Origin: Zygnema cylindricum
Taxonomy: Eukaryota > Streptophyta > Zygnematophyceae > Zygnematales > Zygnemataceae
Length of the DNA stretch: 64,000 nt
Direction of reading: 5' to 3'
NCBI GenBank assembly: GCA_037447655.1
Contig: JBBHKE010002430.1
Coordinates: 31,255 to 95,254 of the forward strand
Part shown: piece by piece, positions 5,856 through 64,000 of the stretch
Layout of the letters: each line of letters begins with the position of its first letter
How positions within the stretch are numbered: position 1 is the first letter of the stretch
Notes under the pieces: model-generated
What the model was told of the DNA's origin: nothing
The model's input: only the letters and a program-made list of their open reading frames with translations
Database searches by the model: none
Translations under genes and position numbers: made by a program

Positions 5856-6275
<420 letters not shown>

Positions 6276-10456: not shown

Positions 10457-10490
<34 letters not shown>

Positions 10491-10800
10491 ATGGTGAAAA
10501 TGGAAACACAAAGGGATAAGATTACGTGTGTAAAGAAAAGGACAAATGAGAAAAAATAGATAAAGGCAGGAAAAGACAAGAAGAAGAAAAAGAAGAAGAA
10601 GAAGAAGAAAACAAAGGGGAGTAAAATGGAAAAAGGAAAAAAGAAAAAGGAAATGAAATGCAGGGCTAAGGGGGAAAAAAGTAAAAAGAAAGGAAGAAAG
10701 AGGAAAAGGAAAAAAAAAAGGAAAAAAAAAAGGAAAAAAAAAAGGAAAAAAAAAATGGAAGAGAGCTAGGTTGAGTGAAGGGTTAAAAAAATAAAAGAGA
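10363..10800 (-). promoter_or_regulatory. 5' leader and proximal promoter of the PMI1-like gene
   Basis: Upstream of the ATG the coding strand is CT-rich (10376-10435), then a run of about 30 T (10456-10488), then further pyrimidine runs to about 10760. CT-rich leaders are common in plant genes. I see no convincing TATA box, so the transcription start cannot be placed. Confidence 0.4.
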
Positions 10801-27037: not shown

Positions 27038-28192
27038 CTCCCCTCCCAAATGCAACCATAAGTCTCTTGTTCCCACCAAATACCTCATCACTCTTTTGGC
27101 TGCTTCTGAGTCTCTTTTCCTTGGTTCATTTAGACTTCTACTGAGAATGCCTATAGCCGCAGCTATGTTTGGAGGTGTAGAATTCATAAAGTAAATTAAA
27201 CTGCCTACAATTTGCCCATAAGGAATTCCTTCCATAAACCTCTTTTCTTCCTCATCCATCTTATCATTCAAAATCAATATCCCTCCCTTTTCACTCCCCT
27301 CCGATACTTTATTTAGATCCATGGGAGTGGTACACCCATTTGCTTTCTCCATCTGAAACTTTTCTAGCATATTACCAATAACTTCTTTGTGAGTGAATCT
27401 TATAATTCTATTCCCTCTATCCCTCTCCATTTGAATCCCCAAAATGTATTTTGCTTCGCCGAGATCTTTCATGTCAAACAGACTTCTCGGATCCTGTTTG
27501 AGTTTGTTATTTTAATTTAAGAACTTGTTTAAGACTAACAAATTATCAACATAAATTGCAATAAATATCACTCCATTTTCATCCTCAAATATATATGTAT
27601 ATGGAGTGATTTGAACTTATTCTAATGTATCCCAAACATGTAACAAATTCGTCCAATTTTATATTCCATTGCCGCGGGGCTTGCTTAAGGCCATAAAGTG
27701 ATTTTATCAGTTTGCACACCTTGCTTTCTTCTCCACTATCCACGAATCCTTTCAGTTACCTCATGTAGATTTCTTCTTCCAACTCTTTGTGTTAGAAGGC
27801 GGTCTTAATATCCATCTGGTGTATTTCCAAATCCTTGGCTACGGCTAAACTAAAAAAAAATTTGACAGAAGGGAATCTGACTACGGGTGCAAAGGTTTTT
27901 TCATAGTCTATTCATTTTTTCTAAGTATAACCTTTAGCTACCAATCTAGCCTTATATCTTTCAATTTATTATTTGGGTTTAGTTTAAGCTTAAAAACCCA
28001 CTAACATCCAATTGGTTTTCTGTCCGATGGACAATCTACCAACTCCCATGTATTGGCTTCCGTAATAGAGGCCATTTCTTCATTGATGGCAGTGATCCAC
28101 CGGCTACTTTCTGGGGGATTTATGGCCTCGAAGTATCTTTGAGGTTCTTCTGGGTGAGACATCTTTGTGAGTTTGCTATTTACATGTTTTTC
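27038..28192 (-). pseudogene. copia reverse transcriptase of element C1, broken
   Basis: The C-terminal part (27043-27472) is open: KDLGEAKYILGIQMERD, VIGNMLEKFQME, CTTPMDL, YGQIVGSLIYFMNSTPP, AAKRVMRYLVGT. The N-terminal part (27480-28192) is recognisable in pieces with stops and frameshifts: an IFIAIYVDN-like site near 27550, PRQWN near 27670 and a QMDIKT-like site near 27815. This reverse transcriptase is inactive. Confidence 0.8.
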
Positions 28193-29185
28193 TTAAAGCC
28201 GTTTACTACTTCTTTTTCCTCCTTCAAAATCTGACGCCGGTATAGAAGGCATCCTCGGGTTTCGTTTACGAAAATTTTCATCTCCCTTATCTTCGAATTC
28301 CAGTGTTTGATCAAGTTCTTTGTCAGTTTCCATTTCGTATTGTGGTGTTACTTCGGATGTTGTAGTTTCGTCCTTCTCTTTTGGCACATCTGCACATTTT
28401 TCCTTCTCCCCGTCTTCATTCTCTTCATTTCCCAAGTCAAAGTCAGAATACTGACCCGATTCAAATCTGATTTTGACTTCTTTGTTATATTTGAATGGAT
28501 CAATAGACTTTACTTCATTCATCACCATTATGTGTTTTACCAAAATGATATCTCTCTTTTTCAACTCATACACTCGATATCCTTTTGTGCTCTCATCATA
28601 TCCTACAAGATATTCTGGTTTCCCTCTTCCCTCTAACTTCCATTTAGTCTTATCGGAATCCAAACTGTATACTTGACTTCCGAACACTCTCAAACTAGAC
28701 AAATTTGGTTTTCTTCCCGTCCACCTTTCATACGAAGTTTCCTCCTTATTTGCCGAAGTTAGCACTCTATTTTTGATGAAGTTAGCATAGTTTATAGATT
28801 CAACCCAAAACTGCAATCCTATTCTTTTATCAGTTAGCATACTTCTGGGCATATCTCCTAAAGTTCTATTCACTCTTTCTGCTACTCCATTTAGTTCCGG
28901 ATTATAAAGAACAATTTTCTCATGATGGATTCCTTCTTTTTTGACAAATTCTTCAAATTCCTTTGATGTGTATTCTTTCCCATTATCACTTCTTATCTCT
29001 TTTATTGAGGTTTCATGTAAATTTTTACTCCAAACTTTGTATTCTTTGAAAAATCTTAGTACCTTTGACTTATATGTAAGAAAATATACCTTAGTGTATC
29101 TAGACCAATCATCTATAATGGTTAGCATCCATCTTTTCCCCCAATGTGAAACATACCTAGCTAGTCCCCAAACAACAGTGTGAAC
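28193..29185 (-). pseudogene. copia integrase of element C1
   Basis: Integrase core and C-terminal region. The first catalytic Asp is in LTIIDDWSRYTKVYFL, the second in EIRSDNGKEYTS, and the Glu in NGVAERVNRTL. FWVESINYANFIKNR, YERWTGRKPNLSSLRVFGSQVY and a K-rich tail follow. The 311-codon frame is open from about 29128. Farther upstream the HHCC part is broken by stops (near 29200-29400). Confidence 0.85.
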
Positions 29186-29639
29186 TAGATCTAATACTTT
29201 CTTTTTCTAAATGTGGATGCCTTTGGAAATGGGAGTCTATGAATCTTCCCTTGGGCACATCCACTACAATCATCTGAGGTCTCATCATCTCCAAACTCAA
29301 TTCCATCCACTATTCATTTTTTCTTCATTTTCTTTAATCTATCTAGATTCACATGCCCCAACCTCTTGTGCCAAAGCATCATATCAATTCCACACTAGAA
29401 GAGAACACCATTTTCATTGCAAAGTACAATTTTGAACATTCCTAGACTACCCTTTTCATCTATGAAATAAACCTCATTATCAAAGCTGGCTTTGAAGATT
29501 CCTTTCTTAGTTCTGGTTTCGAACTCTTTTTCATCTAAAACAGCTATAAAGACTATATTCTTGCTAAGCTATGGAACGTAAAGAAAATCTGAGAGTGTTA
29601 CAATTGAAGCCTTTCCATCAACTATAACCTTTAAATCAA

Positions 29640-29800
29640 CCGATCCAACAAGACTTGTGGTTTCTTCTCTACTATCTCTATACTCTATCTCAACTTTTGG
29701 AAATTTTCTTAATTTAGTAAACCACCTCTTATCCTTGCACATATGCATTGAGGCCCTTGAGTCTATGATCCACCTATCTTCAGGTGGATCCTTCTTACCT
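29640..29800 (-). pseudogene. copia protease remnant of element C1
   Basis: The minus strand reads WIIDSRASMHM, where active copia proteases have DSGAS; the Gly is Arg here (GGG to AGG). The HMCKDKRWF and VGSVDLKV-like parts that follow match element C2. Stops nearby show decay. Confidence 0.7.
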
Positions 29801-29964
29801 CCGAAAGCACACTTTTATCCCCGTAGAATGTTTGTATGCTTCTTAGTGGTTTTTGGCTTCATGCTCCTCTTCCATTTCGGTTACGTCATCTTCTTCCTCG
29901 TCAAGAACTTGAGTCAGAAATGCCTTTTTCTTTCCTACATCTTTGGAAGAACGTTGTTCATCTT

Positions 29965-30955
29965 TCAATCAAAGAACTGCAAGCTTAACATAATCTGCCA
30001 TATAATGTCCCAGTTTTTTGCAAAATTGACATAATCCACCTCAAGGAGCTCCTCTCCCTTGTCGATCAAATCTGCCACCTCCTTGTCATTTTCCTCCAAA
30101 GTTTCGATAAGGATCCTTTCCCTTTTCCTCATCAGGCTTCCGCCAATCAGATCCTGCAGCAAATGCTTAAACACTCGGACTTCCTTTTCTAAGTTTTAAG
30201 GTACTCTCTTTCACTAAAATCTTCCCCGTTGTATCATCCGAATTCTAATTGCTATCACCTAGATCCTACAACCGATTAATGATATTCTCATACTCTTCAA
30301 GTAGTTTCATTATCAGTGTATTTACTATTTGTTTCTCAGACCATGAGTTACCTGCACTCTCTAGCTCTCCAAATAATCCTCCTAAGTCATTGCAATAATC
30401 ATTCATACTTCCTCCCTTGTAAGTATAAGCTGAAATTTTATTTTCTGCCAGCTGTTGCAGCTGCAATGACCCACTCTTATATTTGTTTACTAGAGATACC
30501 CAAATTTAACAGGAAGATCTAACATGCATAAGGGGAATGGCAATACCCTTCACTACACTTTTGAGAATTAAGAGCTTAGCCACCTTATCCTTATAGTTCC
30601 AATTTTCATATTCTGACCGTTCGGTCTGACTCCTTGTCACCATTGCTGGTGGTGCTGCTGCCACTATTGTCCTTAGTAGTGGAGCCCCTCGAGAAGCAAC
30701 TTCTCCCTTTTCTCCATCCATGTTTATTTCCCCCCCTTCCTCTTTATCGTTCATGATGATGGGTGATGTTTTAACAGCTGTTGTGACGGAGGTGACCAAA
30801 AAACGTGTTCCTCCAAACCCACGTTGAGGTGGGCATCGAATATGCCCAAACACTATGCCCCATAGGTGCTTCTCAAAAAGTTCTCCCTCCATCATCATTT
30901 CTGAATAAAAAAATTATGATCCATTAAATATAGGCACCCTAGAGGGAGGGCCAAT
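29965..30955 (-). pseudogene. copia gag of element C1, broken
   Basis: Several frames are needed to read it. There is a zinc knuckle near 29990-30040 (CQFCKKLGHYMADY, with the last Cys lost), NTLIMKLLEEYENIINRL with SYTYKGG-like gag near 30266-30466, and an N-terminal frame at 30506-30898 starting MMMEGELFEKHLWGIVFG that matches the gag start of element C2 near 38020. Homology to the C2 leader (GGCACCCTAGAGGG) continues to about 30945 and then stops, so the 5' LTR is missing. Confidence 0.7.
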
Positions 30956-31490
30956 ATTGAAAAGTAAGCTTTAGTAAGTCTTAGAAATTTGAGTCTATGA
31001 CTTAAAATATTTTTGGAATACCAACTATTCAATATTGACCAAATTTAGTGTAGAATTTTTGTAGTATCTACACGAATAGTTATCTTTAAGTAAATTAGTG
31101 TGTAGGGTCGCCAATGAATGTGGACGTGATAAGGATCACCCGGATTTTTAGGGTATAGATATTGTTAGTGGACAATTCTGGTCCAAACACTTAGATTTTT
31201 GTCAGTAGGTTGTCTAGTGAACCCTGTACATACGTTTTAGATTTTTTCTATATATTTTAAGTATTTAGTTCAATTAGGATTGATCAATTCCATACAGAAT
31301 GTACATTCTACACAGAGTTTAAGGAAATGAGAGCACTAAGTGCAGTTTAAGGTGTTTTGTGCTCTATTGTCTTTGATTTGCTTGTAGTACATGTTTATTT
31401 GGTTGAAAGACCTCTTTCATTTGTAGTTACGTATCTTACAGTATTGATCTAGTCTGATAGGTATTCCTCTTTGGGTTTGCTTCGGCTAAC
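30956..31490. other. probable leader of the plus-strand copia element, no gene
   Basis: AT-rich sequence between the broken 5' end of element C1 and the gag of plus-strand element C3. It may hold the C3 leader or LTR remnant, but I see no second copy in the window to define one. Confidence 0.4.
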
Positions 31491-33890
31491 ATGTTTGATA
31501 ATGGCTCAGCTCCTGCAAGAAGTGCTCCTATTAGCCCTAGTGCTCCACCAGCTCCTCCATGGACGAATATCCTAGCAGGTGCAAGTGTGACTCCTAGTGG
31601 GAGTGGATCACAGGCGAGTCTAAATGCCCATGACCTTCAACAGGTTATGGGCCCACCGCCCAAATTGCCTATCTTTGATGGATCAGACTACTTGTACTAG
31701 GAAGATATGCTGAGCTCCTATTTCGAAAAGAGGGACTTGTCATCCATTGTGGATGGGAATGCTGATGAGACTGCACCGGATTGGAGAAAGAAGAATCCAC
31801 TGCCTCAATGTCTTGAAGCAGTCCATGACAAAGGAGTTGGTAATGTCTTACCTTGATATGAAAAAGGCTTCTCAAAATCTGGTTTAGCGTACATGCTATG
31901 TATGTTCAGCTTGATGTCACTGTTTAGACTAATATAGCAACAGAAATCTTTGAATTTAGATATTCTGGAGGTAGTATGTCAGATCATTGCCATGCTATGA
32001 AAAGATTGTTCGTTCAGAGTACAAGTGCAAGTGGGGACTTTTCACCACCTCAGCAGGCTATGCTATTGATGAGAACTTTACCCAATGAGTATAAGGGAGC
32101 CATGGATAGGCTTAGGGCTCTTCCACAACGTCAATGGAACATATCATTAGCAATTCAACTTATTTTGAGTGAAGAAGCTAACCAGATTTCACAAAGAGGG
32201 GATACTAAGTCTGTTCAAGTACTAGCTAACTAGTTTTTAGATTCTAATATTGGTAGTGGCAGTGGTAGAGGTAATGGTCTTAAAAGGTCACCTTTAACCT
32301 GCTATTACTGTGATGAAAAAGGGCATGTGTTCAGAATGTGTAATGCATATAAGAGAGCGAAAACTACAGGAATTTTTTGCTCTGGATGGGACAAAAGTCG
32401 GGTTCCTTCTCAATCAGGTGGTCGACCAACTGCTCTCTTCAACGAACTTAAGAAGGAGGACGTGAGAAACTTTCCCAGCAACAGCGAAAAGAAATACTTT
32501 GCGATAGCAGAAGCAACGGAAGGCGTGGAGGAAAACGAATGGATAATGGACTCCGGTGCATCTGCACACATGAGCCAAATTGCCATCTGTTTGAGAGTAT
32601 TCAATCTATTTCACCCATCAAAACTTATTTTAGTGATGATACCTTTGATGAGTCAAAAGCAAAGGGGAGGGTGTCACTTATGTTGAACGTAGAGGGAAAA
32701 CCTATGAAAAGGGTTTTAGAAGATGTGTTGCATGTCCCAGCTTTTAAAAGAAACTTTTTCTCTACGTAAGTGGTAGAAAAGAAAGGTTTTAAAACTATAT
32801 CTGAGAATGGAAAGAAAACAGTAAGTAAGAATGGGAAAATAGTTGCAGAGGGATTTGCTAGAGGAAACAATTTGTATCGGTTAAGTCTTGCAAATGATAA
32901 TGACAATGATGTTATGTACTCAAGTGTAATCAATGATTGTGATTTATGGCATAAACGTTTAGGACATGTAAATTATGATAGATTAGAAAAGATGGTAAAT
33001 CAAAAAATGGTGGAAGGTGTAAAAATTAGTCAAAAACCAGCATCAAATGTATGTGATGGTTGTGCAATGGGAAAAATTCATAAGTTGCCTTTCCCTTTGC
33101 AAACTGATCATAGAAGTAGCAGGGTGCTAGAACTAATTTATTCAAATGTATGGGGGCCATCTAGGTATCCATCTGTGGGAGGTGCTAAGTTTATGCTTAC
33201 CTTTACTGATGACTATAGTAGATTTACTACAGTTTAATTTTTGAAAAGGATGAAGTCTTTGCAAATTTTAAGGAGTATAAGGCTTGGGTTGAGAATCTTC
33301 ATGAGAGAAAGATAGCGGGATTCAGATCTGATAATGGAGGGGAGTACATTTCTAATGAGTTTGCAGAATTCCTAAAATTGCATGGAATCTCACGTCAACT
33401 AACCATTTTTTATTCTCCGGAACAAAACGGTGTTTCAGAAAGGATGAATAGGACCACATCAGAGTGTGCTAGGACAATGATGGTTCATATGGACATAGAT
33501 TTCAAATTTTGGGCAGAGGCAATGCATTGTGCAGCTTATGTGAAAAACAAGCTAGAAACAAGGGCAATAAAAGATAAAACTCCCTATAAAATGTGGATAG
33601 GACACAAACCAGATGTAAGTCACTTCAAAGTTTTTTAAAGTAAGGTATTCTTGCTAGATAATGATCCACAAAAATGGTAATTAGAGCCAAAAGGCATACC
33701 ATGGATATTTTTAGGGTATGATGATCATGCCAAGGGTTATAAAGTATATGACATTAAGAGAAATAGAGTTGTGGTAGCCAGAAACATCAAAGTGAAGGAT
33801 GAGGGAAAAGGAGTAGATGTATTTAGTCAACGTAGCGATGAAAAGAAAATTCGAAGTGTTGATAATATCTTTTAAGAGGAAAATCCTTTG
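31491..33890 (+). pseudogene. truncated Ty1/copia element C3 (gag, protease, integrase)
   Basis: A different copia family on the plus strand. Gag starts at 31491 and continues with RTLPNEYKGAMDRL (31976-32233). An intact CCHC knuckle CYYCDEKGHVFRMC is at 32300-32341. The protease site WIMDSGASAHM is intact near 32541-32575. The GAG-pre-integrase/HHCC part (HKRLGHVNYDRL, CDGCAMGKIHKLPF) and the first integrase Asp (TFTDDYS) are in 32770-33237, and the Glu region (EQNGVSERMNRT) is in 33378-33638. Stops at 31698, 32231, 32767 and 33235 separate these parts. Integrase tail remnants run to about 33890, where the element is cut off. No reverse transcriptase or RNase H follows. Confidence 0.82.
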
Positions 33891-33910
33891 TTTTTCAATA
33901 AAAATATACT

Positions 33911-34264
33911 ACAATTCTATGGGCTCCATTGCCACACAGAATTCGCTGGTCTAAAGGAAGCTAATCTAGATAGTGCCGACTCCAAGTTTATATAAACCCA
34001 AATGATTGACCCCTTGACAATCTGAACCCCATTACAACTTCACCCCTGTGAAATAAGACTTTATGTGTGCTCAGTTCCACCATAGAATGCAAAGTTAGAA
34101 TATGAGATTTGGACACATTCACCCACTTTGACTTTCCCTTAGAAATGCAGCCACCCAGGCAGGCAAAAACACTAACCGACTACACCCTGTGTAGCTTGGA
34201 CTCCCCTGAGTCCGCAGCAACAAAAATCACTGAAATTGGTCAATTGAGTTGATAGTTATGGCTG
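33911..34264 (-). mobile_element. copia LTR fragment
   Basis: About 350 bp, close to 90 per cent identical by eye to 20335-20690 in the same orientation, including GCCGACTCCAAGTTTATATA. The remaining roughly 800 bp of the LTR and the RNase H of the adjoining element are missing. At 34265 the sequence passes directly into reverse transcriptase coding, so this is a deletion or recombination junction. Confidence 0.8.
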
Positions 34265-35330
34265 GCTATCAAGTATCGCATGATCCTTTTGGCCGCTTCC
34301 GAATCTTTCTTCCTAGGATCATTTAGACTCTTACTAAATATCCCTACAGCTGCTGCTATATCAGGACGATTACATTCATAAAGTATATCAATCTACCGAC
34401 AACCTGTCTGTATTGATTAGTTTGCATAAACTTGCTTTCCTCATGTCCTAACTCATTATTCAATATCAAGACTCCCTCTTTCGAGCTCCCCTTATTTCCC
34501 TTCTTTAACTACATTGGAGTCGTACAACTATTTGCTTAATCTATTTAAAATTTTTCAAGCATATTTCCTATTGCTTCTTTTTGAGTTAGTCTTATCGTTT
34601 TCTTCTCTCTATCCCTCTCCATCTAAATTCCCACAATATACTTTGCCTCCCCTAAGTCCTCCATTTCAAATCTACTCTTTAGATCCTTTTTCAATCTATT
34701 AATTTTCTCCATTGATTTACTCAACAAAAGCAAATTGTCAACATAGATGGCAATGAAAATTACACCTTCTTCATCCTTAAATAGATAGATGGAATGATCC
34801 GAATTGATTCGGATATATCCAAAACTCATCAAAAACTCGTCCAGTTTCTTATTCCATTGGCGTGGAGCTTGCTTTTGTCCATAAAGAGACTTTATCAATC
34901 TGCACACATGACCTTCTTCTCCTCTCTCCAAAAGTCTTTTCGGTTGTCGCATGAAGATCTCTTCTTCTAATTCTCCGTGTAAGAAAGTTGTTTTGATGTC
35001 CATCTGGTGCACTTCCATGTCTTCCGCTGCAGCTAGACTTAGTAGAACCTAAATGGAGGGAAATCTAACAACTGGAGCAAAGGTCTCCTCATAATCGATT
35101 CCCTCCTTCTGTGTGAACCTCTTTGACACTAATCTGGCCTTTTATCGCTCACTACTGTTATCCGGATTGAGTTTCAACTTAAATACCCACTTATATCCTA
35201 TTAGCTTTCTGTGTGGAGGACAATCCACCAACCCCCATGTGTTTGTTTTCATAATGGAAGCCATCTCGTCATTAATAGTTGTCACCCATCTACTACGTTC
35301 TGGACTATTAACTACTTCCGAGTAAGTCTA
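34265..35330 (-). pseudogene. copia reverse transcriptase of element C2, broken
   Basis: The central open part (34623-35018) has HQMDIKTTFLHGELEEEIFM, CRLIKSLYGQKQAPRQWNKKL and the active-site region AIYVDNLLLL, where YVDD has become YVDN. EDLGEAKYIVGI follows. The C-terminal part (34265-34622) and N-terminal part (35040-35330) are recognisable but contain stops. Confidence 0.82.
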
Positions 35331-35475
35331 GGGTTCGCTCAAATGTGACAACTTAGTTACCTTGTTGTTTACTTGTCTCTCTTCAAGTTTGTTGTTGCTT
35401 CTCTTTCCTCCTTCAAACTCCGACGCCGGAATGGAGGGTAATCTTGGATTTTTCCGAATAACTTCAACCTCTCCC

Positions 35476-36300
35476 CTAACAGTGGAGTCCAAATCTTGGA
35501 CGTTCATCGTCCATTTTCAATCTTTCCTCGTTTTCTTCCTCAATTTGAACCAAAAGGTGTGACTCCAAGAGAGGGTCACTCTCAATCATTTTTTCTTCTT
35601 CCTTTGCAAGGTCAAGCTGAACCGGAGTTAGGTTAGAAGAATCTGAATCTGACTCACTTTCTGATTCAATTCTAACTCTAACCGGTTTAGTGTACTTAAA
35701 GGAATCTATGGACTTTCCTTCATCCATGACTACCAAGTGTTTTACTAGAATTATGTCTTCTCTTCCGAGATCATAAACTCTATATCCCTTTACATTTTCA
35801 TCATACCCAAGTAGGTATCCCAGCTTTCCACTTGCATCTAACTTCCAATCAGATTTTTGTGTGTTTAGACTAAAGACTTGACTTCCGAACACCTTTAAGT
35901 GTGAGAAATTGGGTTTTCTCCCGGTCCATCTTTCATAAGGTGTTTGTACTTTTATTGTCGAGGTAAGGACTTTATTTTTGAGATAGCACAATTCATAGCT
36001 TCTACCCAAAAAGTTTTTCTTATCTTTTTATCTGTCAACATACTACGAGCACTATCACTTAATGTCTGATTTAGTCTCTCGGCTACACCGTTTTGTTCTG
36101 TATTCTTTGGGACAGTCTTTTGATGTTGAACCCCATCCTCTTTCAAATAATCCTCAAACTCATTAGAAGTGTATTCCGCCCCATTATCACTCGTCACTCT
36201 CTTTATAGGTGTCTCATGAAGCTTTTCACTCCATGCTTTATACTTCCTAAAATAAGTCGAAGCCTAAATATATAATAGTAAATGATAAAGTAATTACTTA
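35476..36300 (-). pseudogene. copia integrase of element C2
   Basis: Two overlapping frames. 35952-36197 has TSDNGAEYTS (second Asp) and EQNGVAERLNQTLSDSARS (Glu). 35476-36009 has TPYERWTGRKPNFSHLKVFGSQVF and a Ser/Asp-rich tail. A frameshift lies near 35980. It resembles the C1 integrase but the two are well diverged. Confidence 0.85.
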
Positions 36301-49368: not shown

Positions 49369-51640
49369 TTAATAATGCACAAGATAAATTAAAAAGCACG
49401 ACGGTAAACCATCTGAGTCCGAGGGTACACAAGGGGCGGCAAGGCAAAAGCTGAAAAAACTACAAGTAGGGCGATAAAAAACAAACAAAGAAAGCAACGT
49501 GAACACATAAAAATGGAAAGTAAAATAAAAGCACCCAAACCCAAAATGAGAAGCACAGCAACAAACAAAAACAAAACTACAAGCCCAACCCCAACTTAAT
49601 AAAATATCTACAAAAGCAACCCCGTAAGTCCCCCAACCACGTTGAGAGAGTTCCGGAACACGTCGACGATCCATACATGCCATAGCCAAACGAAGGAGAA
49701 TAGAAGCCTCCACTCGCTGTAAAGCCACAGATAAACGTTGACGATAAAAAGAAGTAAGGATCGAAGGAGGAGGGCTCCCAAGTCTTCGTCGCTTGAAAGC
49801 ACATCTAGCACAGGTACAGAGAAACTCGTCGAACGCAACACCCAAACAACTAAAGATCTCGACCGCCATCGGAATAAAGTCACCCATAGGGTCCCGGTGG
49901 GCATAATCACGCTTCTTCCCTTTAGCGGCAATAGAAGCTGCCACCGTAACATGTCGAGCCGCCTGACCAAAACCTGTAGCCGAAGAAGGGTTCGCCAAAA
50001 CAATATCACCGAAGATGCGACGGGCACCATCGAGCAAAACAACATCGATCCGGCGCGAGGGAATGATATGAGAAACCTCTCAACGCACAAAAAATCCCCT
50101 TTCCAAAGCGATAGACGGAACAACGTCACGAATAGTGTCGTGCGCCAAGATCAATTCTCCCCCATGGGAGCAACGAAGCAAATAGACACCATCGAGCCCC
50201 AAGACACGACCACAAGCACAAACAAGAGAGCCAAGTAAAGGAGGATGGGGGAGGCCAAGGCAAAACCAAAGGGCGGTAGTGAACTGAGCAGGTGAGAATC
50301 GGAGAGTGGACAAAATAGGTGTTGCAAATAGCCAAGACCTAGAACCTGGGCCACCACAAGAGAGAATACAAGCACGCGAAGAATCACAGGGAAGCTCGGA
50401 TTTAATGGCGGCGACAACCCAATCAAAAATTGATTCTTGGACACGCTCAACGGATTTCGTAACAAGGGTGGAAAAAAGTGGCACATCCACTAGGGCATGA
50501 GGAGGAAGAGAAAATGACGCGTCCAATAAAAACTGGTGGAAGGCGTACACACCGTCTAAAACTCGGTGGACCACAGTGGCGAGAACGAGGGAGTCCCCAG
50601 CCAAGAAGCGAGAAACAAGAGTGGAGGCAATAAGGCACCAACTTGCCAAATATACAGCGGGAGCAACCCGAGCAGTTGATAATAAACCTAACCCCCCCGT
50701 AGAGATAGGGAGGGATGCCTTAATGCGGGCCGAAGGCCCAGACTCTCGATCGAATGCCCCACGACCTAGTAGAGTGTGGAGAACATCCATCAGGCGATCA
50801 ACAAAGGCGGAGAGAGAGGAGACAAACGTCGGGGTGGGAGGGGAAATACGAGTATGGTTAGAAGGGCGGTGGGGGAAACACCTGGTTAACATAGCAAAAG
50901 CCACTTGGGGATCGGGAAGGTGAGGAGGGTCATCCACGTTGGCCATATCCGTCTGTAGCGCATCATCAAGACATTCGGTCACGATAGTATCCGTACCAAG
51001 GGGACAACCCAACACACAAATGCCATCTGAGGGAGAAGGAGTTTGAAAACAAGCAGGGGGAGTAAAGGAAAGTGAAATATCTGTCTAGGACCAAATAACA
51101 CATTTAGAAGGCTGTACTGAAAGGTTTGGTTAGGCTAAACGTTCCTTGAAAAAATTATATGCCGACACAACTTGTTCCATAAGTCCAATAATGTGCGTAT
51201 CATGTGCCACCGAAGGGAAAAAACAAGAAGGAAAAGCGGATGCGAAAGCACGGAGGGCTTGGTAATGGGGGAGGGCGAACAAAGGTCCACCCAAAGGGTT
51301 GCCTTGGCGAGTGCCGGTCGCAGAGGAGAGAGGAATGAGAAAACCTTCGACTGAGAAAGAAAGGCTGTTGGTCAAAAAATAATAAGCCATCACAAAGGGG
51401 AATAATTGGACAATCAGAGATGGAACCGCCATAAGCTCTGAAAAAATGACTTTCCGATTCACTGTATTGAAGGCATTTGAAAGGTCGACCTAAAAGAACA
51501 ACCAATCCGGAAGTACATCAAACAAAGCTCGAATCCCGTGGACCACGACCTCACAACCTCCTTTCGTGGCTACTCCAACTGTGAAACTTCGAACATCTAA
51601 TCATTGATCTTGCGACCCTCAAACATCAATTTTATTACAC
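49369..51640 (-). pseudogene. decayed non-LTR retrotransposon reverse transcriptase, 5' truncated
   Basis: Reverse transcriptase motifs appear in order on the minus strand. Motif A VDLSNAFNTVNRKV is near 51460-51500. Motif B TGTRQGNPLGGPLFAL is in 51130-51462. Motif C is near 51190, where VADDT has become VAHDT. A long C-terminal region (50080-51015, GTDTIVTECLDDAL) follows, then GARRIFGDIVLANPSSATGF with YAHRDPMGDFIPMAVEIF (49369-50037). That last pattern I recognise from plant elements of this group, where it follows the reverse transcriptase and may be nuclease-like. Frameshifts lie near 51480, 51120 and 50050. The N-terminal endonuclease is absent to the right of about 51640. Confidence 0.75.
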
Positions 51641-51889: not shown

Positions 51890-52139
51890 TTGTCGAGCGT
51901 GCCTGGGAAACATAAGAGAAGGGCCCACCCCCAAAAATAGAGTGCATTGAGGTTCTGGAAACCGGTAGGTTTAGGGGGGGGATGTCCGAGAAGGTGTGCA
52001 TAGAAGACTTGCAATCCACCCCAAATGCAGATGCGGTTCCGCATGCGTGACCATGCCCTTCTCTGTCCCTCCCTTCCTCGGGGATATGCATTGGTAATAG
52101 TGAGGCAGCGAGTGAAAAGAGGAAAAAGTACCTCGTACA
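51890..52139 (-). repeat. partial gypsy LTR end, second copy
   Basis: About 245 bp here are some 88-90 per cent identical by eye to 53331-53571 in the same orientation (GGGAAACATA...CCCAAAAATAGAG...AGGAAAAAGTACC). It directly abuts the start of the full left LTR at 52141, as if the end of another LTR copy lies upstream. Confidence 0.75.
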
Positions 52140-52140
52140 G

Positions 52141-53571
52141 TGTTTATTCGCCTGGAGCCCGCTAAATGGTGCAGTCCTGAATACTATCCAAAAGATGGCA
52201 AGGGAATGTTAGCCGTCCAATCCAGCCCACAAAACTACGGACAAAAACCAAGGACTATCACAACAGTAAGCAAATAACTCCCACGCAAAAATATAGAAAC
52301 AATAAATATCGGCTCTTTCAGATTAAACAATATCACCTTGCCCCAAAAAATAGAAATAAAGATAGAAATCAATGAAAATGGTGAAGCAAGCTCACATACC
52401 CCGGGGTGCAACGAAGACAAAACTTAGAAGAATAAACCCTCTCCAAATTGCCCTGAAGGCTGATATGATTCTCCCTCAACCCTCGGTTCTGCTGTACGGA
52501 TCCGACCTGACTCTTCTAAGTTTCAAATAGTGGAAGTCCAAACCGCCCAAAGAGAGGATAGTGCCAACCACCCACCCGAGCTACGGTTTCCACAAAAGAC
52601 AATCTAAAACAAAGATGGCAATAGAGTTCCCAACACAATGCAACAGTTCTCCAACAGAAAGATTGATTGTATTTCTCTGAGGGTTTTCTCAGGAGACAGT
52701 ACTGAAAAGCAACTTGTCTCCTTCGGCCAAAAGTGCCTTATACCAGCAAAGTTTGTCCTACTGAAAGTGCCAAAGTCAAAGCAATACCAAAAGCCAATCA
52801 GCGGCCAAAATTGTTATCGTACGGATATAAGACCAAACAGGCTGTACTACAGTTAGGGCAAAAAGTTAAGCGACTAGCTCCGACTGGATTTGAAGCCAAA
52901 ATGTCCTCCTATGATACAGTGATGAGCCACAAAGTTCTGAATTGACGTGAAACGCCTAACTTTGACCCAAAGTAATAAATGTTGTGCCTGTCTGGTGGAG
53001 CTGAACTAACATCGTACTGACAGCCAATAGCAAAATCTACAGGTCTATCCCCAAAGTTACATGGCGTTCCATAATGTACCCCCTACAAGGACCGGTGGAA
53101 ACTGGAAGCATGTAACAGAATGGAAATCTTTGAAGCGAAATAACTCTGTTATCTAACCTCCGTTAGTCGCGAAATAAAGTGCGTTCCGTTTTGTTTGGTA
53201 AGTAGAAGGAATTTGTCCGGCGAGGTGCATCTTCTCCTCCGTACTTTGAGGACCGTACTGGTTCAAAAAGGGTTTGGAAATCCTTGGTGATATAAAGGTG
53301 TGCCGAAAATGCACACGAGCCTGACAGCTGTTGAGCATGCTGGGAAACATAGGAGAAGGTCCCACCGCCAAAAATAGAGTGCATTGGGGTTCACGAAACT
53401 GGTAGGTTTACGGGGGGGATGTCCGAGAAGGTGTGCATAAAAGACCTGCAATCCACCCCAAATGCTGATGCGGTTCCTGATGCGTGACCATGCCCTTCTC
53501 TCTCTCTCCCTTCCTCGTAGATATGCATGGGTAATAGTGAGGGAGCGAGTAAAAAGAGGAAAAAGTACCCC
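52141..53571 (-). mobile_element. gypsy 3' LTR (left), about 1.43 kb
   Basis: 52141-52985 is a direct repeat of 63162-64000, starting TGTTTATTCGCC and TGCTTATTCGCC-like respectively, with long exact runs (for example around AATATCACCTTGCCCC). The right boundary near 53571 is set by the end of the 51890-type repeat. It is followed by a strong polypurine tract on the minus strand (AAGAGGGGGGGGG..., 53572-53605), as expected just before a 3' LTR. Exact boundaries are inferred. Confidence 0.75.
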
Positions 53572-53630
53572 TTACCCTCCCAAATTCCCCCCCCCCTCTT
53601 AGTCCGGCGTGACGAAGAGGTTAAGACAAA

Positions 53631-54095
53631 TTAGCCGCCAAATTCGCAGTCCCCACAAAACCACAGATTTGCGGTTTGAGAGCAGGACTCCCAAGTTGGC
53701 GGCAGGCAAAAGTCATGCCACACTTGATGACAATGATCACACACCGACACGAAGCCGGGCATAAAAGACACATTGCAGGCAGAGGAACACGGGGATGGAT
53801 CTAGAAAGTAAGTGAGGTGGAAATTGGGTTTGTCCTCTAGCCCTCGTAAATGGTAAGGAGCCACATTGATCTGGTTATCCTTAATTTTGCGGCCATCCTT
53901 TCTTTCCAAGGTCAAAACCCCTTTGCTAAAGACCTCCACTACTTTCAGAATCACCCGTCCGGCCGAAATGTCCAAAGTGTCTTTCTTTTGTTGCATGCGA
54001 TACACGAAATTCCCCGGACATGAATCGTTGTTGTCGAGGGACATAATTGCCGCTCCTGCGTTGGGAATACCAAAGCTAATCCTTGTGCTGAGCAA
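53631..54095 (-). pseudogene. gypsy integrase C-terminus with PHD finger
   Basis: Residues about 28-82 form a post-integrase module (GNFVYRMQQKKDTLDISAGRVIL, VLTLERKDGRKIKDNQINVAPYHL). Residues 103-150 are a complete C4HC3 PHD finger: C103, C107, C119, C122, H127, C130, C147 and C150, with a WH pair before the fifth ligand and WFCGDC at the end. PHD fingers read histone H3 tails. In this position it probably guides integration, as a chromodomain does in chromoviruses. The stop follows closely, then the polypurine tract. The frame is open for 154 codons. Confidence 0.82.
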
Positions 54096-54123
54096 CTTGT
54101 AAATTGCCCATAGCTAGAGGCAT

Positions 54124-54923
54124 TTATCGTTGAAATACCTTGGCCCTGTCGGCAATCAGCTTCTCCACAGTCCCCAGGTTGTCTATCTCCGGAAGTACAA
54201 CCGCCTGAGCCGATGCAACTCGAAGAAAGATGGGATGTCCGCCGAAGAGAATGAAGTAAGGGCTATAGGAATGGAGGGAGACATGCCTAGTGAATCTGTA
54301 TCCCATGGCAATCGAAGGCACGCGTCTGTCCCATTCCCCTAAATCCTTTTCCATTGCATATTGCCGTAGTGACCGCTTCACTTTCTGAACACACCTTTCG
54401 GCCAAACCATCGGCTTGAAGGTGGTCTTAGCTGGTCAACCAGTGGTGAATGAGGCACTTCTCCAGAAGGTTAAAAAATTCTCCGGCAAACTCGGATCCCT
54501 GATCAGTTAAAACTTCGGTCGGTGCTCCAAATTGGGACAGCAAGAATGTGTCCGCGATTGCTTTGGATTCCTTTCGGGGGAGAACCACCAGTTCGATCTA
54601 TTTGGAGAAGTATTCAACCATTACCAATACAAAACAGTTTCTTTCTGGCTGGTGGGAAGTGGTCCTAGTAGATCTAATGACCATCTGTTAAACATCCCTT
54701 GGATGGGGAGGGAGTGAAGTTGAGTTCCACCCTTTTTGTCAAAAGTAGCTTTCACCCGTTCACGGGAAGGACACGTCTGCACCACACGATTGACCTGGGC
54801 CTGCAACCCATGACACCAATATGATCGTGTGACCAGTGAGGTGGTCCGTTTCTGTTCGAAGTGCCCGCATTGCTGGTGAAGATGAACACTAAGGGTTTCC
54901 CGATCTGCCGGAGGAGGTACCAC
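54124..54923 (-). pseudogene. gypsy integrase zinc domain and core, broken
   Basis: 54621-54923 holds the HHCC zinc region (HLHQQCGHFEQKRTTSLV, SYWCHGLQ, and CPSR where CxxC is expected) and the first Asp block (WSLDLLGPLP). 54124-54405 is the end of the core (AERCVQKVKRSLRQYAMEKD, WDRRVPSIAMGYRFTRH, SPYFILFGGHPIF). The middle, with the second Asp and the Glu, lies in 54406-54620 and contains at least one stop or frameshift. Confidence 0.8.
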
Positions 54924-54962
54924 TTTCCTCGTACCATCGGCCCATTTTTTGAGAAGAATGCC

Positions 54963-55640
54963 TTAGTCCCATTCATACGCCCACATACAGGTATAAACCT
55001 GGGACAAGTGAATTCCGGCCAAGTGGGGAAGAGGGGAACCTTTCTGGATATACCCAAGGGAATCGGGGTTATTCCAAATATCCTTGGGGCCGGCTCCAAT
55101 GGGAGCGTGCCCCTCCACGTCTGCAGCAAAGGTTGACAGTTTCCCTTGAGCTCGAGGCAGCCAAATAAAGGCAGAGGAAGCCCTGATAAATCCCAATCTA
55201 AGCTCGGGGTCTTCATCGTGCCACGCCCTTGTAGAGTCTCTGGTGGAAGGGTCCGGATTTCTGCTAAGTCCGTCGGCATTCCCATGGATGTCCCCTGCTC
55301 GGTGGATAATGCTGGAGTCGTATTCCTGCAAGTTGAGAACCCAACTGGCGAGCTTGCCGGTCAACTTAGTGTTCTCCATTATCCATTTGAGGGGCTGATG
55401 ATCCGTAATAAGGGTAAAGTGTACTCCATAGAGGAAAGGCCTGAAATGTTGGATGGCCCACACCGCTGCAAGTAATTCTCTGTGGTAATTGCTGTAATCC
55501 CCCTCGGCTCTGTTATAACTCTAGCTTGCGTAGGCCACCACGTACTTAGCCCTTGCATCGTGCAATTGAGCCAACATTGCTCCTAATCTGAACCTGCTCC
55601 AATCAGTATAAAGGAGGAAAAGCCGCTGGTGATCGGGCAT
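54963..55640 (-). pseudogene. gypsy RNase H
   Basis: YTDWSRFRLGAMLAQL (first Asp) near 55590-55640 is followed, across an in-frame stop, by VWAIQHFRPFLYGVHFTLITDHQPLKWIM and LASWVLNLQEYDSSIIHRAG, ADGLSRNPD. The order and spacing are those of the Ty3/gypsy RT-RNase H. A tail of ordinary linker sequence leads to the integrase. Confidence 0.85.
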
Positions 55641-55799: not shown

Positions 55800-56590
55800 C
55801 CCTAGAAAGTGCAAAAAACAGAAATTTTCTGCGGGGGTGGAAGGGCGTCATGGGCTGCCACCTTAACCGTGTGGGGACCTAGTGTCCTACGAGTCACCGC
55901 ATGACCCAGAAAAATGATTTTCTGTACCCCAAAAATGCCCTTCCTCGGGTGACACTTCAAGCCCCGTGCTTGGAGAGCCCGTAGAATGATCTGTATGTGC
56001 TCCTAGTGTTCCTCAAATGTCTTAGAGAAAATAATCACATCGTCGATATAACACCGTGCGCAATAGATTCCCCGGGAGAGCCTCGTCCATGGCCCGTTGG
56101 AATTTGGCATGTGCATTTTTGAGGCGAAATGGCACGTACAGCCATTCATATAACCTGGATCCGGCCCAAAGAGCAGTCGTTTCTCGATGCTTCGGCTCCA
56201 TTGCAATCTGGTGGAACCCATTCTTCATATCCAACGTAGAGTAAATGTTGGCCCTAGCAAGAGAGCCAAAGATCTCTTCCGAGGTGGGCATGGGATAACA
56301 GTTGGAGACAGTTGCCTTGTTGAGCATTCGATAGTCCCCACACATTTGGAAATCTACCGTTTTCCCGGATGAGTCTTTCTTTGGCGTGAGCACTGTTGGA
56401 GAGGCAAACCCATGTAACCCTGTACTTTCCTGCACCAGCCCCGCGTCCACCAAAGTCCACACCTTTGCGGTGATGAACTCCTTCTCCTTGAAGTTGAGAG
56501 GGTATTGTTTCTGCCAAACAATCGTCGTCTCGTCGGTAAGGTCAATGCAAAAAGGGCTCCCCTTATAGATCCCTACATCTGTGTCAGACT
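55800..56590 (-). pseudogene. gypsy reverse transcriptase, frameshifted
   Basis: 56022-56462 carries GLVQESTGLHGFASPTVLTPKKD, CGDYRMLNKATVSNCYPMP, YSTLDMKNGFHQI, and FRLKNAHAKFQRAMDEAL. The active-site motif CYIDDVIIFSKTFEEH is found in the next frame (56003-56221), so a frameshift lies near 56050. 55800-55990 has HPRKGIFG-like and HAVTRRT-like pieces of the thumb region. Confidence 0.87.
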
Positions 56591-57154
56591 AGGAGAACTC
56601 TTGCACGTTCTCCTCTAACAGCTTGAAGAGCCGGGCCTTTTGATGTGGGTCTAGCTGTTCCCCTAAAGTCCTGTCCATCTTCCTGGGTTCCAATGCCACC
56701 AAGGCTTCCAGTGGCCGACCCCAAAGGGAGATGTAGAATTCCAATTCTACCTGTGGATCTGTCCTTTGCTCAGTTGCTAAAATTCTACCGCAGACAACTT
56801 CCCAGAAGCAGCTTTGTTATGAGCCTCCGCTCCCCCCCCTTGTGAGGAAACTCCTTGGTTCAGTGTTTTCTCTAAATGTAATTTGCTGATTTTTTCCCTT
56901 CTTGCCTCTCTCCCCCCCTCAAGTAGAGTTGCTTAGAAGGCCAACAACTGTGGAGCTTGAAGGTATTTTTCCCGTGACTTTGAAGATTAGAGGCTGGAGA
57001 ATGCGAGAGAATGTTGTAGCACCCAAGAAATTGCATTCAAATCCATACTTTGCCCGATAAAAATGCACCTTTTTGAGGCCGAGACTCCTAATGTTGCTGT
57101 TGTTGCCGGTCGAAATCCCATTGCCTGTTCGCGTTCCTCAATACTTGGTGCCGT

Positions 57155-57960
57155 TCAAGTAGCGGTTGTACTGTCAAAGATCATTCCTGGTGCCACTTTC
57201 CGGTAAGCATGGTTGTTAGAGAAAGATACCACAATAAGTAGGGCCTTTCGTGGATTCCCGGGTTTATTGTAACTAAAATAGGGGAATCGGTTGGCTGTGG
57301 TCACACGGGTGGCCATTCGCCGTGGTCCAAGAATTTGTTGAACTAAAATGTTGGGATCCTGAACCTGTGTTTTCAACAGTTGTTGGAGCACGGGAAGTGG
57401 AGCGAAGTTGGTCCAATAAGCCTGATTTAGGTGGGCTCTTGATCCGACCTGAGCTGCATCAAACACTATGGGAGTCCCCAAAACCTTGGTCACTTGGTTC
57501 CAACTGTTAAATCCGTGTTTCCTTTTATCATATGTGGGGTGAAAATTTTCCAAGACGTACCCCACTGGTGTGTCTTGGCGTTCCTGTAACCCTGTTATCT
57601 GTCGAGTCATTTGAAAAAATGTTATGCTACGGACATCCTCGTGTCCCTTGCCTTGTCGTGCTAACGAATACCCCTGATAAGGCCATCCAGCGATCACCAG
57701 GTCTACCCTTCTAAGCTTCTCTAAATGTGAATCTGTGATGTTGTCTACATTCTGAGGAAGCGTACGGTGAGAGTTAGACATGGCGGACACCGAGAGTTGC
57801 AGTGGGTATAGTTGGTGCAGCTATTGCAGTCAGTACTGACTGACTGCACGGGCGTCTGGGTCAATCTCGACTACTGTTTACGTTTTTGCTTGGTATCCAG
57901 CTATCAAGACGGCTTCCTAGTCAAAACTAATGCCGAAAAATAGTGAGAGAATCCGGAGTC
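57155..57960 (-). pseudogene. DNMT3-like cytosine-5 DNA methyltransferase domain inside gypsy pol
   Basis: One minus-strand frame carries the C5-methyltransferase motifs in order. Motif I is LRILSLFFGI (57929-57958; SAM binding). EIDPDA (about 57851-57871) fits motif II. DLVIAGWPYQGYS is motif IV, where the catalytic Cys of the PC pair is Tyr (codon 57677-57679, TAT). YVLENF (near 57541) is motif VI. RAHLNQAYWTN is motif VIII. A TTANRFPYF region follows. Four stops (TAG, TAA, TGA, TAG) fall between motif I and about 57790; the rest is open for 211 codons. The LSLF.GI and EIDPDA style is closest to DNMT3/DRM. The domain lies between protease and reverse transcriptase, so it is part of the element. 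This copy cannot be active. Confidence 0.82.
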
Positions 57961-58109
57961 CTGAGGGCGAGATATCCAGTGACACCACTTGTCGGTTGAA
58001 GTCCTTCCCTGGGTTAGGAACTGTAGGGAGTTCAGGCCGGATGAACCTTGCTGTCTCGGATGATATGGCGACAAAGCTCATGTCCACTCCCCGCCGAAGT
58101 GTGGCCATC

Positions 58110-58720
58110 TGTACGAATCTGCTTTGATACTCTCTTTCCCACCGCTTAGAAATGGGGAATTGCTAGATGGAATTTGCGATATCGGTGGAATCTTTGAACA
58201 GCTCTGAAGGGGTAAATGCAGAGTACACTAAAAAACATCAAGCCACAGGAACAGTCGTTTTCCCTCGGTTCCATAAATCTAAGGGGACCACCACTTCAGT
58301 GCCCTATGGATCTTTCGGGTCTGAATCTTTAACTTGTTCCTTCCATATTCTCAACTCCATGTTCAACCTTGTCCACGTGGCCATACCCAACATAATTTCA
58401 AATTGCTTACCTTCCACCACAAAGAAGGGGAGATGAATTTGCATGTGTTGGCATGCGTCATCAGTGAATTCTATTGCCATTGCTTTAATGATGCCATATA
58501 TTGGCTGGATCCCACTGCTGAAAGTACTCAGGCATATTTCACTGGACTGATTTTTTGTCTGATTTCTTCGAGCATTTTCTGTAATGCTGAGGTGGTTATG
58601 AGGTTAGGGAGTGCTCTCGTATCCACCACTGCATCTTGATACTTGCCGGATCCATTAAGTTTAAAATTCCCTGTCATGTTAAGAATAAGAGCCGCCGACA
58701 GGGCCTTATAATCTCTATCC
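58110..58720 (-). pseudogene. gypsy retropepsin-like protease, inactive
   Basis: NGSGKYQDAVVDTRALPNLITTSALQKM holds the active-site position near 58620-58640: DTG has become DTR. Downstream, MAIEFTDDACQHMQIHLPFFVVEGKQFEIMLGMATW ends with the LLGMDFL-like motif of gypsy proteases. A stop separates the two halves near 58530. Confidence 0.72.
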
Positions 58721-58889
58721 GCCAAATAAGTTTTCGGTTCTGCCGACATGACAACTGTCTTGGGTGGTTTTGCCAACGCAACTTTTTCTCTCCTGGTGTG
58801 AATCTCTTCCTCTAATGCCTGAATGAGGATTTCTTCGGGCAAATTGTGGGAGGAAGCTATCGTTTTGACATTGGTCAAGGCGTAGGGCA

Positions 58890-60190
58890 TCAGGTGTCGT
58901 ACCAACATGACAACCGGTTTGGAAGAAGGAGGGTGAGCTTTGGGCGATGAAAGGTTGAGTCCTCGTCTCTTGATTCCTCCTCTCCCCCCCCTTGCTTCTT
59001 CATCTTCTGCGTCAGAGTTCCCTGTTGGATGTGTAATTGGTTGATCTGCTGTTGTCTTTCAGCCAGGTATTGGTCAAACCATTTCTGATCTGTTTCCGTT
59101 GTTGAAGCATCCTTTTCTGGCTGTGGTTTGTTGTAACCCTCGAAACCAGAAGGAAGTTTCTTCGGAGCCGGAGGAGGAGGATGGGTCGGTTTTAGGCCCA
59201 GCCTAATGTCACTATTCAGCAGGACAACTTGCAGTGTGAAGGATAAAGGACCGGTGGCTTTGCGGCTGTGGTCTTTTGGTTCCATCGGCTGTTTGTCCTT
59301 TCTTTGTGAAGACGTGGTAGAGCGGAGTTGCCTGCGATTTTCCCCGACTCCGATGATCTTGGCTCCGGACAGAAATGTTCGAGCATGATGAGCCTTTGGA
59401 GGCTCCATATCCCAACCCATGTGGTCATCATCATCTCCACCCACCGTGGTCTGCTGTTTCAGCCCCGCAAGCTATTGTAACAGTTCTTGTTTCTGTTTAT
59501 ACAGTTTCTGAGGGTGCGTTAGAGGTGGAGGTGTGCGAGCCTTTGATTCCAAGCGGAGAGCGGCCAGCTTTGCTGCAATGGCGGACAATTGATTGCTTTG
59601 CTGCTGGATGATGTGTTCCACCGTCATGTTACTTAGTCTCGGTTCATCTGGAGATCGACGTCCCCAAGGATACAAAATTTGCAATGGCAGCGGATTCACG
59701 GTTGTTTCCCCCTCGCCTTTGAACAAAGCATAATTCATCATTTCTTTTGGGACACCATTCATCCATAAACATTGCCCATCCTTATGGCCCATGAACCTAC
59801 AAGCCTCACAATTTGACCCCTTAGTGGTGTAGTTCCCTTTTAACTCATTAGAGATCTAAGCATCATCAAATTTAGGAAGCCTGATTTGTCTTAATTGGGA
59901 TAAAGACATTTTGGCGGTTTTAGAGCGCGGAGAAGGTTTATAAGTTTGTTTTGTGACCTGTGTGCGGTCCCCTCCTCGTCCTCCCTGCCTTTGTTCTTAC
60001 TGCTTTCGGGTTCTTTCTGCACGTTCTTTCTCAAACTCTTTTTGCTTGATAGCGAGTTCCGGGTTGAGCTTCTTAGGGCATCGTTTCCACCCGTGACCGA
60101 CCGGTTTGGTTGCAGTTCAGGCCGTTGTATAGGTAAACTTTTTCATCCGCACCCATTGCAGGTTCGGATCTGGTCCTAGCTTCCTGTTTC
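58890..60190 (-). pseudogene. gypsy gag C-terminal region with zinc knuckle
   Basis: A CCHC knuckle reads CEACRFMGHKDGQC near 59776-59817. Downstream comes a coiled-coil-like segment (MTVEHIIQQQSNQLSAIAAKLAALRLE) and then a basic/Pro-rich and Gln-rich linker (58890-59444, QQQINQLHIQQGTL). Near 60050-60110 GHGWKRCPKKLNPELAIKQKEFEKE looks like a second, frameshifted knuckle followed by a charged helix. Confidence 0.65.
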
Positions 60191-63030: not shown

Positions 63031-63161
63031 ATCCCTATTTTGAACTTCTCCTCCTCCTATAGCAGACTGGAACTGAAGAGCTAAATCCCTTTTTGAAAGT
63101 ACTCCGCCCTAAGCACCTATCTTCTTTAACCTAAAGAGAAAGGTGTGGCTTTTCAATACTG

Positions 63162-64000
63162 TGCTTATTCGCCAGAAGCCCACTAAATCCTGAATAATAT
63201 CCAAAGGATGGAAAGGAAATGCTAGTCATCCGATCCGGCCTAAAAACTCCGGAGAGAAACCAAGGACTATCACAACAGTGCGCAAATAACTCCCACGCTA
63301 AAATATAGAAAACAAAAAAAAAAAAGGCTCTTTCAGATTAAACAATATCACCTTGCCCCAAAAAATAGAAATAAAGATAGAAATCAATGAAAATGGTGAA
63401 GCAAGCTCACATACCCCGGAGTGCAACAAAGACAAAACTTAGAAGAATAAACCTCTCTAAATTGCCCCAAAGATTGATATGATTCTCCCTCAACCCTCAG
63501 TTCCGTTACGGATCCGACCAGACTCTTCTAAGTTTCAAATAGCGAAAGTCCAAACCGCCCAAAGAGAGGATAGTGCCAACCACCCACCCGAGCTACGGTT
63601 TCCATAAAAGACAATCTAAAACAAAGATGGCAATAGAGTTCGCGACACAATGCAACAGTTCTCCAACAGAAAGATTGATTGTATTTCTCTGGGGGTTTTC
63701 TCATGAGACAGTATGGAAAATCAACCTGTCTCCTTCAGCCCCAAGTGCCTTATACCAGCAAAGTTTGTCCTACTGAAAGTGCCAAAGTCAAAGCAATACC
63801 AAAAGCCAATCAGCGGCCAAAAATTGTTATCATACGGACATAAGACCAAAGAGGCTGTACTTCAATTAAGGCAAAAAGTTAGACGACTAGCTCTGGCTGG
63901 ATTTGAAGCCAAAATGTCCTCCTATGATACAGTGATGAGCCACAAAGTTCTGAATTGACGTGAAACGCCTAACTTTGACCCAAAGTAATATATGTGTTGC
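63162..64000 (-). mobile_element. gypsy 5' LTR (right), cut by the window end
   Basis: A direct repeat of 52141-52985, about 90 per cent identical by eye, in the same orientation. An internal A-run near 63309-63323 replaces a short segment of the left copy. It continues past the end of the window, so the full LTR and outer target duplication cannot be seen. Confidence 0.82.

Follow-up and report, generated by a model that had tools for sequence, protein, structure and literature searches.

The stretch analyzed here (the window) comprises 64,000 nucleotides of Zygnema cylindricum DNA, positions 31255-95254 of contig C1837 in a 352.8-Mb assembly of 2,689 contigs. On its minus strand, at 57964-57000, a DNMT3-like methyltransferase (MTase) sits between the protease (PR) and the reverse transcriptase (RT) of a Ty3/gypsy retrotransposon. 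A preliminary description made from the letters alone had proposed this arrangement; the analysis supports it, and we regard the identification as practically certain. The motifs it had listed (LSLFFGI, EIDPDA, GWPYQGYS, ENF and RAHLNQAYWTN) all lie on the minus strand within 57964-57400 in one frame, which is broken by stops and runs on from motif I through the motif X region (to ~57000). The open piece 57158-57820 matched the PF00145 profile significantly (25.4 bits, E = 1.2e-5, cut-off 22), and its best Protein Data Bank chain was DNMT3A (20.4 bits).

The flanking domains were also as proposed, in part. The RT was recovered by Pfam, while a Pfam scan of the window gave no match for the protease; that call was made because a piece of a relative, L031:7977-8813, is homologous, and this piece itself scored 22.3 bits for Asp_protease_2, under the cut-off of 24.3. 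Downstream, the integrase (INT) core runs on in broken frames toward 54124 (by eye), and two relatives gave rve matches of 46.4 and 46.7 bits. The PHD finger (PF00628) at the integrase end, seen in some family members, scored 39.7 bits in a copy on contig C1344 and 18.0 bits, under the cut-off, in one on C1374. The suspected pair of long terminal repeat (LTR)-like sequences is real and ~90% identical, in a layout more complex than a simple pair: A1, B1, A2, B2 (Table 1).

Table 1. Features of the Ty3/gypsy element, in window coordinates.
Feature	Position	Strand	Evidence or remark
A1 (left repeat)	63157..64000, extends beyond window end to contig 95593	-	90.0% to A2 over 1195 columns
Gag-like region with CCHC-like knuckle (CEACRFMGHKDGQC, by eye)	59475..59855	-	no Pfam match
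Protease region, active-site motif DTR	58307..59058	-	via homologous piece L031:7977-8813
In-frame TAG then CAATTC at PR/MTase border, candidate readthrough stop	58163..58165	-	seen in window and relatives
DNMT3-like cytosine-5 MTase domain, 5 in-frame stops; motifs IV, VIII, IX degenerate	57000..57964	-	PF00145
TAT (Tyr) where the motif IV catalytic Cys codon is expected	57677..57679	-	relatives read PCQG
RT, N-terminal part	56025..56588	-	PF00078, 38.8 bits
RNase H	54966..55520	-	PF17917, 72.4 bits
Integrase zinc-binding domain and core start	54624..54962	-	PF17921, 40.5 bits
Integrase C-terminal region, PHD-like finger at end	53634..54113	-	PF00628, 16.4 bits, under cut-off 24
Polypurine tract (AAGA + G-run) ahead of B1	53587..53600	-	by reading; same place in relatives
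B1 repeat	53329..53575	-	89.9% to B2 over 248 columns
A2 repeat	52136..53324	-	repeat of A1
B2 repeat, right end of element	51891..52138	-	A2/B2 border: 3 nt in common

The window copy is a decayed member of a large, long-lived Ty3/gypsy family with the polyprotein order PR-MTase-RT-RNase H-INT. Profile searches of the same assembly, whose counts are lower bounds, scored at least 123 PF00145 places among 782 candidates, at least 125 MTases of the type of copy L015 among 1847, and at least 150 L015-type RTs among 2669. At least two distant subfamilies are present, the window type and the L015 type. The frame of the window subfamily starts QFPISK; its members include L006, L024 and others, and L018/L021/L030 form a sister group. 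Intact relatives exist. In motif IV, where the window copy has Tyr, relatives read PCQG. The C1344 copy, from another subfamily than the window copy, has a 2395-aa open frame and two A repeats that are 100% identical over 931 bp. Scanned with Pfam in two pieces, this frame gave CCHC (zf-CCHC, 17.7 bits) and protease (17.4 bits), both under cut-off, followed by MTase (45.3), RT (104.5), RNase H (119.6), H2C2 (57.1), rve (46.4) and PHD. No tyrosine recombinase match (PF00589) was found in the seven frames scanned; rve is present instead.

Taken alone, the window score of 25.4 bits is modest, and it could be asked whether the similarity is due to chance or whether an MTase gene was inserted separately into an ordinary gypsy element. 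We therefore looked upstream of the RT in 12 RT matches, chosen by eye from about the first 37 and none with a listed MTase match. One of the 12, C1601, had no MTase in the 1.4 kb inspected, as a separate insertion would allow. The other 11 carried MTase pieces, mostly broken and in three of them only short (C1864, 31 residues; C2046, 99; C2216, 90), so separate insertion is excluded for the family. In addition, MTase and RT lie within a single open frame in L006, L024 and L015, and with at least 123 scored PF00145 places in the assembly the probability of either chance or insertion is negligible.

DNMT3 ranks first for these enzymes by similarity and by fold, DNMT3A/B being the nearest solved structures. 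In the intact relatives the motifs follow the unrearranged order I-IV-VI-VIII-IX-X with the catalytic Cys present, and the catalytic Cys and other motif residues are retained in divergent members. The intact relatives are probably DNA cytosine methyltransferases. DRM enzymes have a rearranged motif order, and a DRM identity was rejected, as motif I lies ahead of IV, VI and VIII.

Protein searches returned 1, 27 and 31 proteins, labelled Klebsormidium nitens (P0007), Closterium NIES-53, -54 and -67, Mesvir1 (P0019, presumed to be Mesostigma viride and without a visible RT), Haematococcus lacustris (P0028) and sets from environmental samples. When 21 retrotransposon MTases were placed in a tree with 13 viral-contig enzymes and human DNMT3A, they formed one group (100/99), with DNMT3A beside them at 72/26. 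Adding P0019 and P0028 gave 23 retrotransposon MTases, again as one group (100/99) against DNMT3A and the 13 viral-contig enzymes; Klebsormidium, Closterium, Mesostigma and Haematococcus are all represented in it, the place of K. nitens P0007 inside the group not being settled. The viral enzymes came from a scan that yielded 394 relatives among 518 pattern matches, of which 80 were kept and 13 used in trees. A viral donor was rejected, as the best viral segments are at most 36% identical, except for one 67-residue segment at 46%, while other retrotransposon members reach 34-49% in their best rows. A bacterial origin was suggested by P0030, a protein which is labelled as coming from a Candidatus Obscuribacterales metagenome-assembled genome and falls among the retrotransposon MTases; we set it aside as probably a binning error, eukaryotic DNA having been binned with a bacterium.

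Two domain orders were found. An MTase tree of 59 rows contains a clade of 21 (100/100), and 16 of these, Haematococcus included, are consistent with the order RNase H-MTase-INT; in only six of the 16 are both sides visible, with RT/RNase H preceding the MTase and INT following it. The remaining five (P0009, P0036, P0040, P0041 and P0047) show no other domain. Outside this clade, the members in which an RT was seen have the MTase ahead of it. P0032 (Closterium) runs against the pattern, with MTase followed by INT and no RT between, perhaps a gene-model artefact. The same split was obtained with RT (18 rows, 100/100) and with INT (16 rows, 100/99).

The simplest reading of these trees would be one old capture followed by one relocation. 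Another possibility is repeated capture of the MTase from DNMT3 genes of hosts. The two positions that the MTase takes up, one ahead of RT and the other flanked by RNase H and integrase, are compatible with this, and several captures remain to be considered because the trees hold no host green-algal or land-plant DNMT3 genes. However, the 23 retrotransposon MTases stand together at 100/99 against human DNMT3A and the 13 viral-contig enzymes, and the same split recurs in the trees of MTase, RT and INT, as with one capture and a relocation. Repeated capture is thus improbable, without being far-fetched. A single old capture also bears on the published proposal of a capture in the K. nitens lineage, without disproving it.

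The window copy is dead because its MTase carries five in-frame stops and its catalytic Cys has become Tyr. Its protease motif reads DTR as compared to DTG in the relatives, and MTase motifs VIII and IX have decayed. Compared at positions on which five relatives agree, MTase-RT of the window copy has 235 changes, of which 93 are C>T or G>A. In unambiguous context, such changes affected 16 of 88 CpG sites compared to 60 of 573 other C/G sites. This decay fits CpG methylation after insertion.

We computed the ratio of nonsynonymous to synonymous change (dN/dS) with a Nei-Gojobori script for 24 within-subfamily pairs, using intact frames only; L008 and L009 are identical, so that pairs with either repeat each other, four pairs are saturated in dS and two have 10 or fewer changes. 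In the window subfamily, MTase dN/dS was 0.10-0.35 in 14 of 15 pairs, the remaining pair being identical. The L018/L021/L030 group gave 0.13, 0.14 and 1.25, and the L015 type 0.21 and 0.32 (the latter from two changes), with four further pairs at dN ~0.15 and saturated dS. For linker-RT the values were 0.10, 0.40 and 0.41, with two pairs saturated and one without changes. These ratios suggest that the MTase has been kept intact over a long time, and the earlier proposal of an ancestral active copy fits them.

A stop codon stands at the PR/MTase border of the window copy and its relatives. We located copies by the downstream sequence CAATTCC, which gave 23 loci, or 18 distinct copies, in addition to the window. 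The window has the in-frame TAG-CAATTC, and so does each of the 18 distinct relatives of its subfamily with a recognised border; one further CAATTCC match, in L027, reads GAA. The TAG border spans groups between which MTase dS is saturated. UAG followed by CAR YYA is a classic leaky context, and that of the window family differs from it at the sixth base. Programmed readthrough at this codon is likely. L015 has no TAG stop at its PR/MTase border.

PAT/DIRS elements carry split direct repeats in the order A-coding-B-A-B. A layout of this kind, A1-coding-polypurine tract-B1-(gc)-A2-B2, was found in the C1344, C1374, C829, C1915 and C449 copies and in the window, other copies not being resolved. 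Unlike PAT/DIRS, the window family has a DDE integrase and 4-bp target duplications in place of a tyrosine recombinase. The outer ends of the element are TGTC (A1) and GACA (B2). Among nine copies with both ends in hand, six have perfect 4-bp duplications at these ends (C1344 TTGG, C829 AAGG, C1915 CCCT, C2602 CCCC, C1063 TTGT, C2234 TAGA), two match at three of four nucleotides (C449 TCAT/GCAT; window GAAT/AAAT, presuming that the first TG has turned into TC) and one, C1374, has none (CCGT/GAGG). The duplications of C829, C449, C2602, C1063 and C2234 were read by eye, as the script had placed its cut 1-3 nt away or elsewhere. One or both ends are missing in C494, C2304, C2495, C750, C1506, C1407, C783 and C2577, and the ends are unresolved in C544, C412, C2458 and C1735.

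Split repeats, target duplications and a DDE integrase together raise the question of how the family integrates. The duplications at the outer ends hint at an end-joined intermediate, and the A2/B2 borders fit a joining of the LTR ends before integration at an internal site. The border is clean in C1344, has one extra nucleotide in C1374, and differs by 2 nt between C829 and C1915. In C1407, whose A is 99.9% identical to that of C1344 and whose left repeat was not found, it lacks 227 bp of A and has 9 nt in common; a deletion after insertion could also have produced this border. No primer-binding site was recognised by eye after A1 in C1344 and C1374, the two copies inspected. One model, possible and on balance doubtful, is that the family integrates from an end-joined (2-LTR) circle which the packaged DNMT3 would methylate. 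The LTR would then be B-gc-A, judged from the polypurine tract and the left leader. The integrase would join DNA at the internal inverted site GACA-gc-TGTC at the B/A border, converting the circle to A-coding-B-A-B with 4-bp target duplications, and the A2/B2 border would be the end-joining scar, varying between close copies. If a 2-LTR circle is truly what gets integrated, the family would deviate from how textbooks describe LTR elements.

The kind of element is already known. The preliminary description had mentioned captured methyltransferases in algal and dinoflagellate retrotransposons, correctly: KnitGypsy-Dnmt3 of K. nitens, split repeats included, was published in 2018 (de Mendoza et al., PMC5890265), and a figure legend there gives it DIRS-type repeats and gypsy domains. 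It belongs to another assembly than the window family and has in common with it the gypsy domain set, a Dnmt3-like MTase in the Pol frame, DIRS-like repeats and purifying selection. Here the gypsy domains are represented by RT, RNase H and H2C2 matches in the window and by rve in two relatives, the repeat layout by the six copies named above, and purifying selection by the comparison of MTase copies, subject to the bias of intact frames. In the partial K. nitens protein P0007, Pfam recognises CCHC, a protease-like DSGA motif can be made out by eye, and the MTase follows. Added here are the wider family, the two domain orders, the TAG border and the target duplications; the main text of PMC5890265 makes no mention of PHD, Mesostigma, Closterium, Haematococcus, Zygnema or a frameshift, and the titles and abstract openings of the papers listed gave no such elements from Closterium, Mesostigma or Haematococcus. 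The same main text describes SymbioDIRS-Dnmt3 and SymbioLINE-Dnmt of dinoflagellates as independent captures. Both are retrotransposons encoding cytosine MTases, and SymbioDIRS-Dnmt3 further resembles the window family in its split repeats and in a Pol that combines a Dnmt3 domain with RT; they differ in using a tyrosine recombinase or a LINE (long interspersed nuclear element) endonuclease, not a DDE integrase (PMC5890265). A passage of PMC12344493 also mentions earlier reports of DNMT3s in retrotransposons (LTR Copia, DIRS) of streptophytes and dinoflagellates, with ChloroDNMT as a separate group. Our data extend a single-species case to a family found in streptophyte algae and in one chlorophyte, whose enzyme has been under long-term selection. 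The question of why an element should carry an enzyme of the type that its host employs in silencing can thereby be tested.

What might the enzyme do? The overall explanation that we favor, and consider reasonably probable, is that readthrough packages an MTase which marks the element's own complementary DNA (cDNA) while the PHD finger steers insertion. In the window subfamily, UAG readthrough after the protease would yield the MTase and everything downstream, and the MTase would therefore be packaged with RT and integrase. It could then methylate CpG on the double-stranded cDNA before or during integration, so that a new copy would land pre-marked, hence less conspicuous or less damaging, and the PHD finger could read chromatin. 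More tentative is the part in which the element's own cDNA is the main target of the packaged enzyme; it falls somewhat short of an even chance. Chromoviruses are Ty3/gypsy elements with a chromatin-reader-like module at the integrase C-terminus; the window family differs from them in having a PHD finger instead of a chromodomain, plus the polyprotein MTase.

Several observations weigh against this explanation. Copies L162 (C1063) and L163 (C2234) are alike at 1087 of 1096 nt and have a common 1-nt MTase deletion. Because they share it at different sites, each with perfect duplications, a lineage with a broken MTase seems able to move, either with enzyme supplied in trans or because the enzyme is dispensable; an assembly error could also account for the shared deletion. 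Self-methylation leaves no uniform mark: the CpG observed/expected ratio is 0.62-0.70 in window-subfamily copies, compared to 0.92 for window 1-50000, whereas the young C1344 copy is not depleted (0.91). Many members (among them L015, L016, L025, L029, P0002, P0018, P0019, P0021 and P0022) carry Glu instead of Pro in motif IV (WECQ) and retain the catalytic Cys. The dN/dS values come from intact frames only, and in one pair of nearly identical copies the ratio was 1.25, from 10 changes. The trees do not tie the family firmly to DNMT3: DNMT3A joined four viral-contig enzymes at 83/70 in the tree with 23 retrotransposon MTases. Finally, the KnitGypsy-Dnmt3 enzyme produced no detectable methylation in yeast, a result its authors call inconclusive (PMC5890265, main text).

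The seemingly mobile frameshifted lineage and the motif IV Glu could also mean that the MTase now has a mainly structural role, as a spacer or a module that binds nucleic acids, and that catalysis is optional. This reading is improbable, as divergent members preserve the catalytic Cys along with other motif residues and MTase dN/dS is low. Alternatively, the MTase could act on the host genome or chromatin, for example by labelling insertion targets or altering the methylation of the host. Chromatin contact is suggested by the PHD fingers that some members carry at the end of the integrase, and for dinoflagellates the main text of PMC5890265 proposes that the host methylome is affected. However, the position inside the polyprotein predicts packaging with RT, and the K. 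nitens methylome resembles that of land plants despite such elements (PMC5890265, main text); we consider a host target unlikely. With respect to the PHD finger, a passage of PMC9915684 reports that in Zygnema cf. cylindricum SAG 698-1a the PHD family exceeds that of the other Zygnema strains at least 9-fold. Retrotransposons with a PHD tail could explain this count, the link of that strain to the window assembly being a guess.

Elsewhere in the window, a PMI1/PMIR C-terminal domain lies at 782-2542 on the minus strand (31.6 bits, cut-off 28.5) and indicates a plant-type host gene; PMI1/PMIR is a plant family, which fits a streptophyte. PF00016, looked for with regard to the host, gave no match. 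On the same strand, a 1559-aa frame at 5845-10521 gave no Pfam match. Other retroelement remains include frames resembling LINE RT by eye (VDLSNAFNTVNRK) at 50083-51489 on the minus strand, without a Pfam match, and Copia-like fragments on both strands at 26000-36100, some recognised by eye, with rve and SH3-like domains at 28196-29206 and a gag pre-integrase domain at 32770-33234. A near-identical tandem unit of 61-62 bp occurs in two arrays 1 kb apart, at 13354-13605 and 14355-14546.
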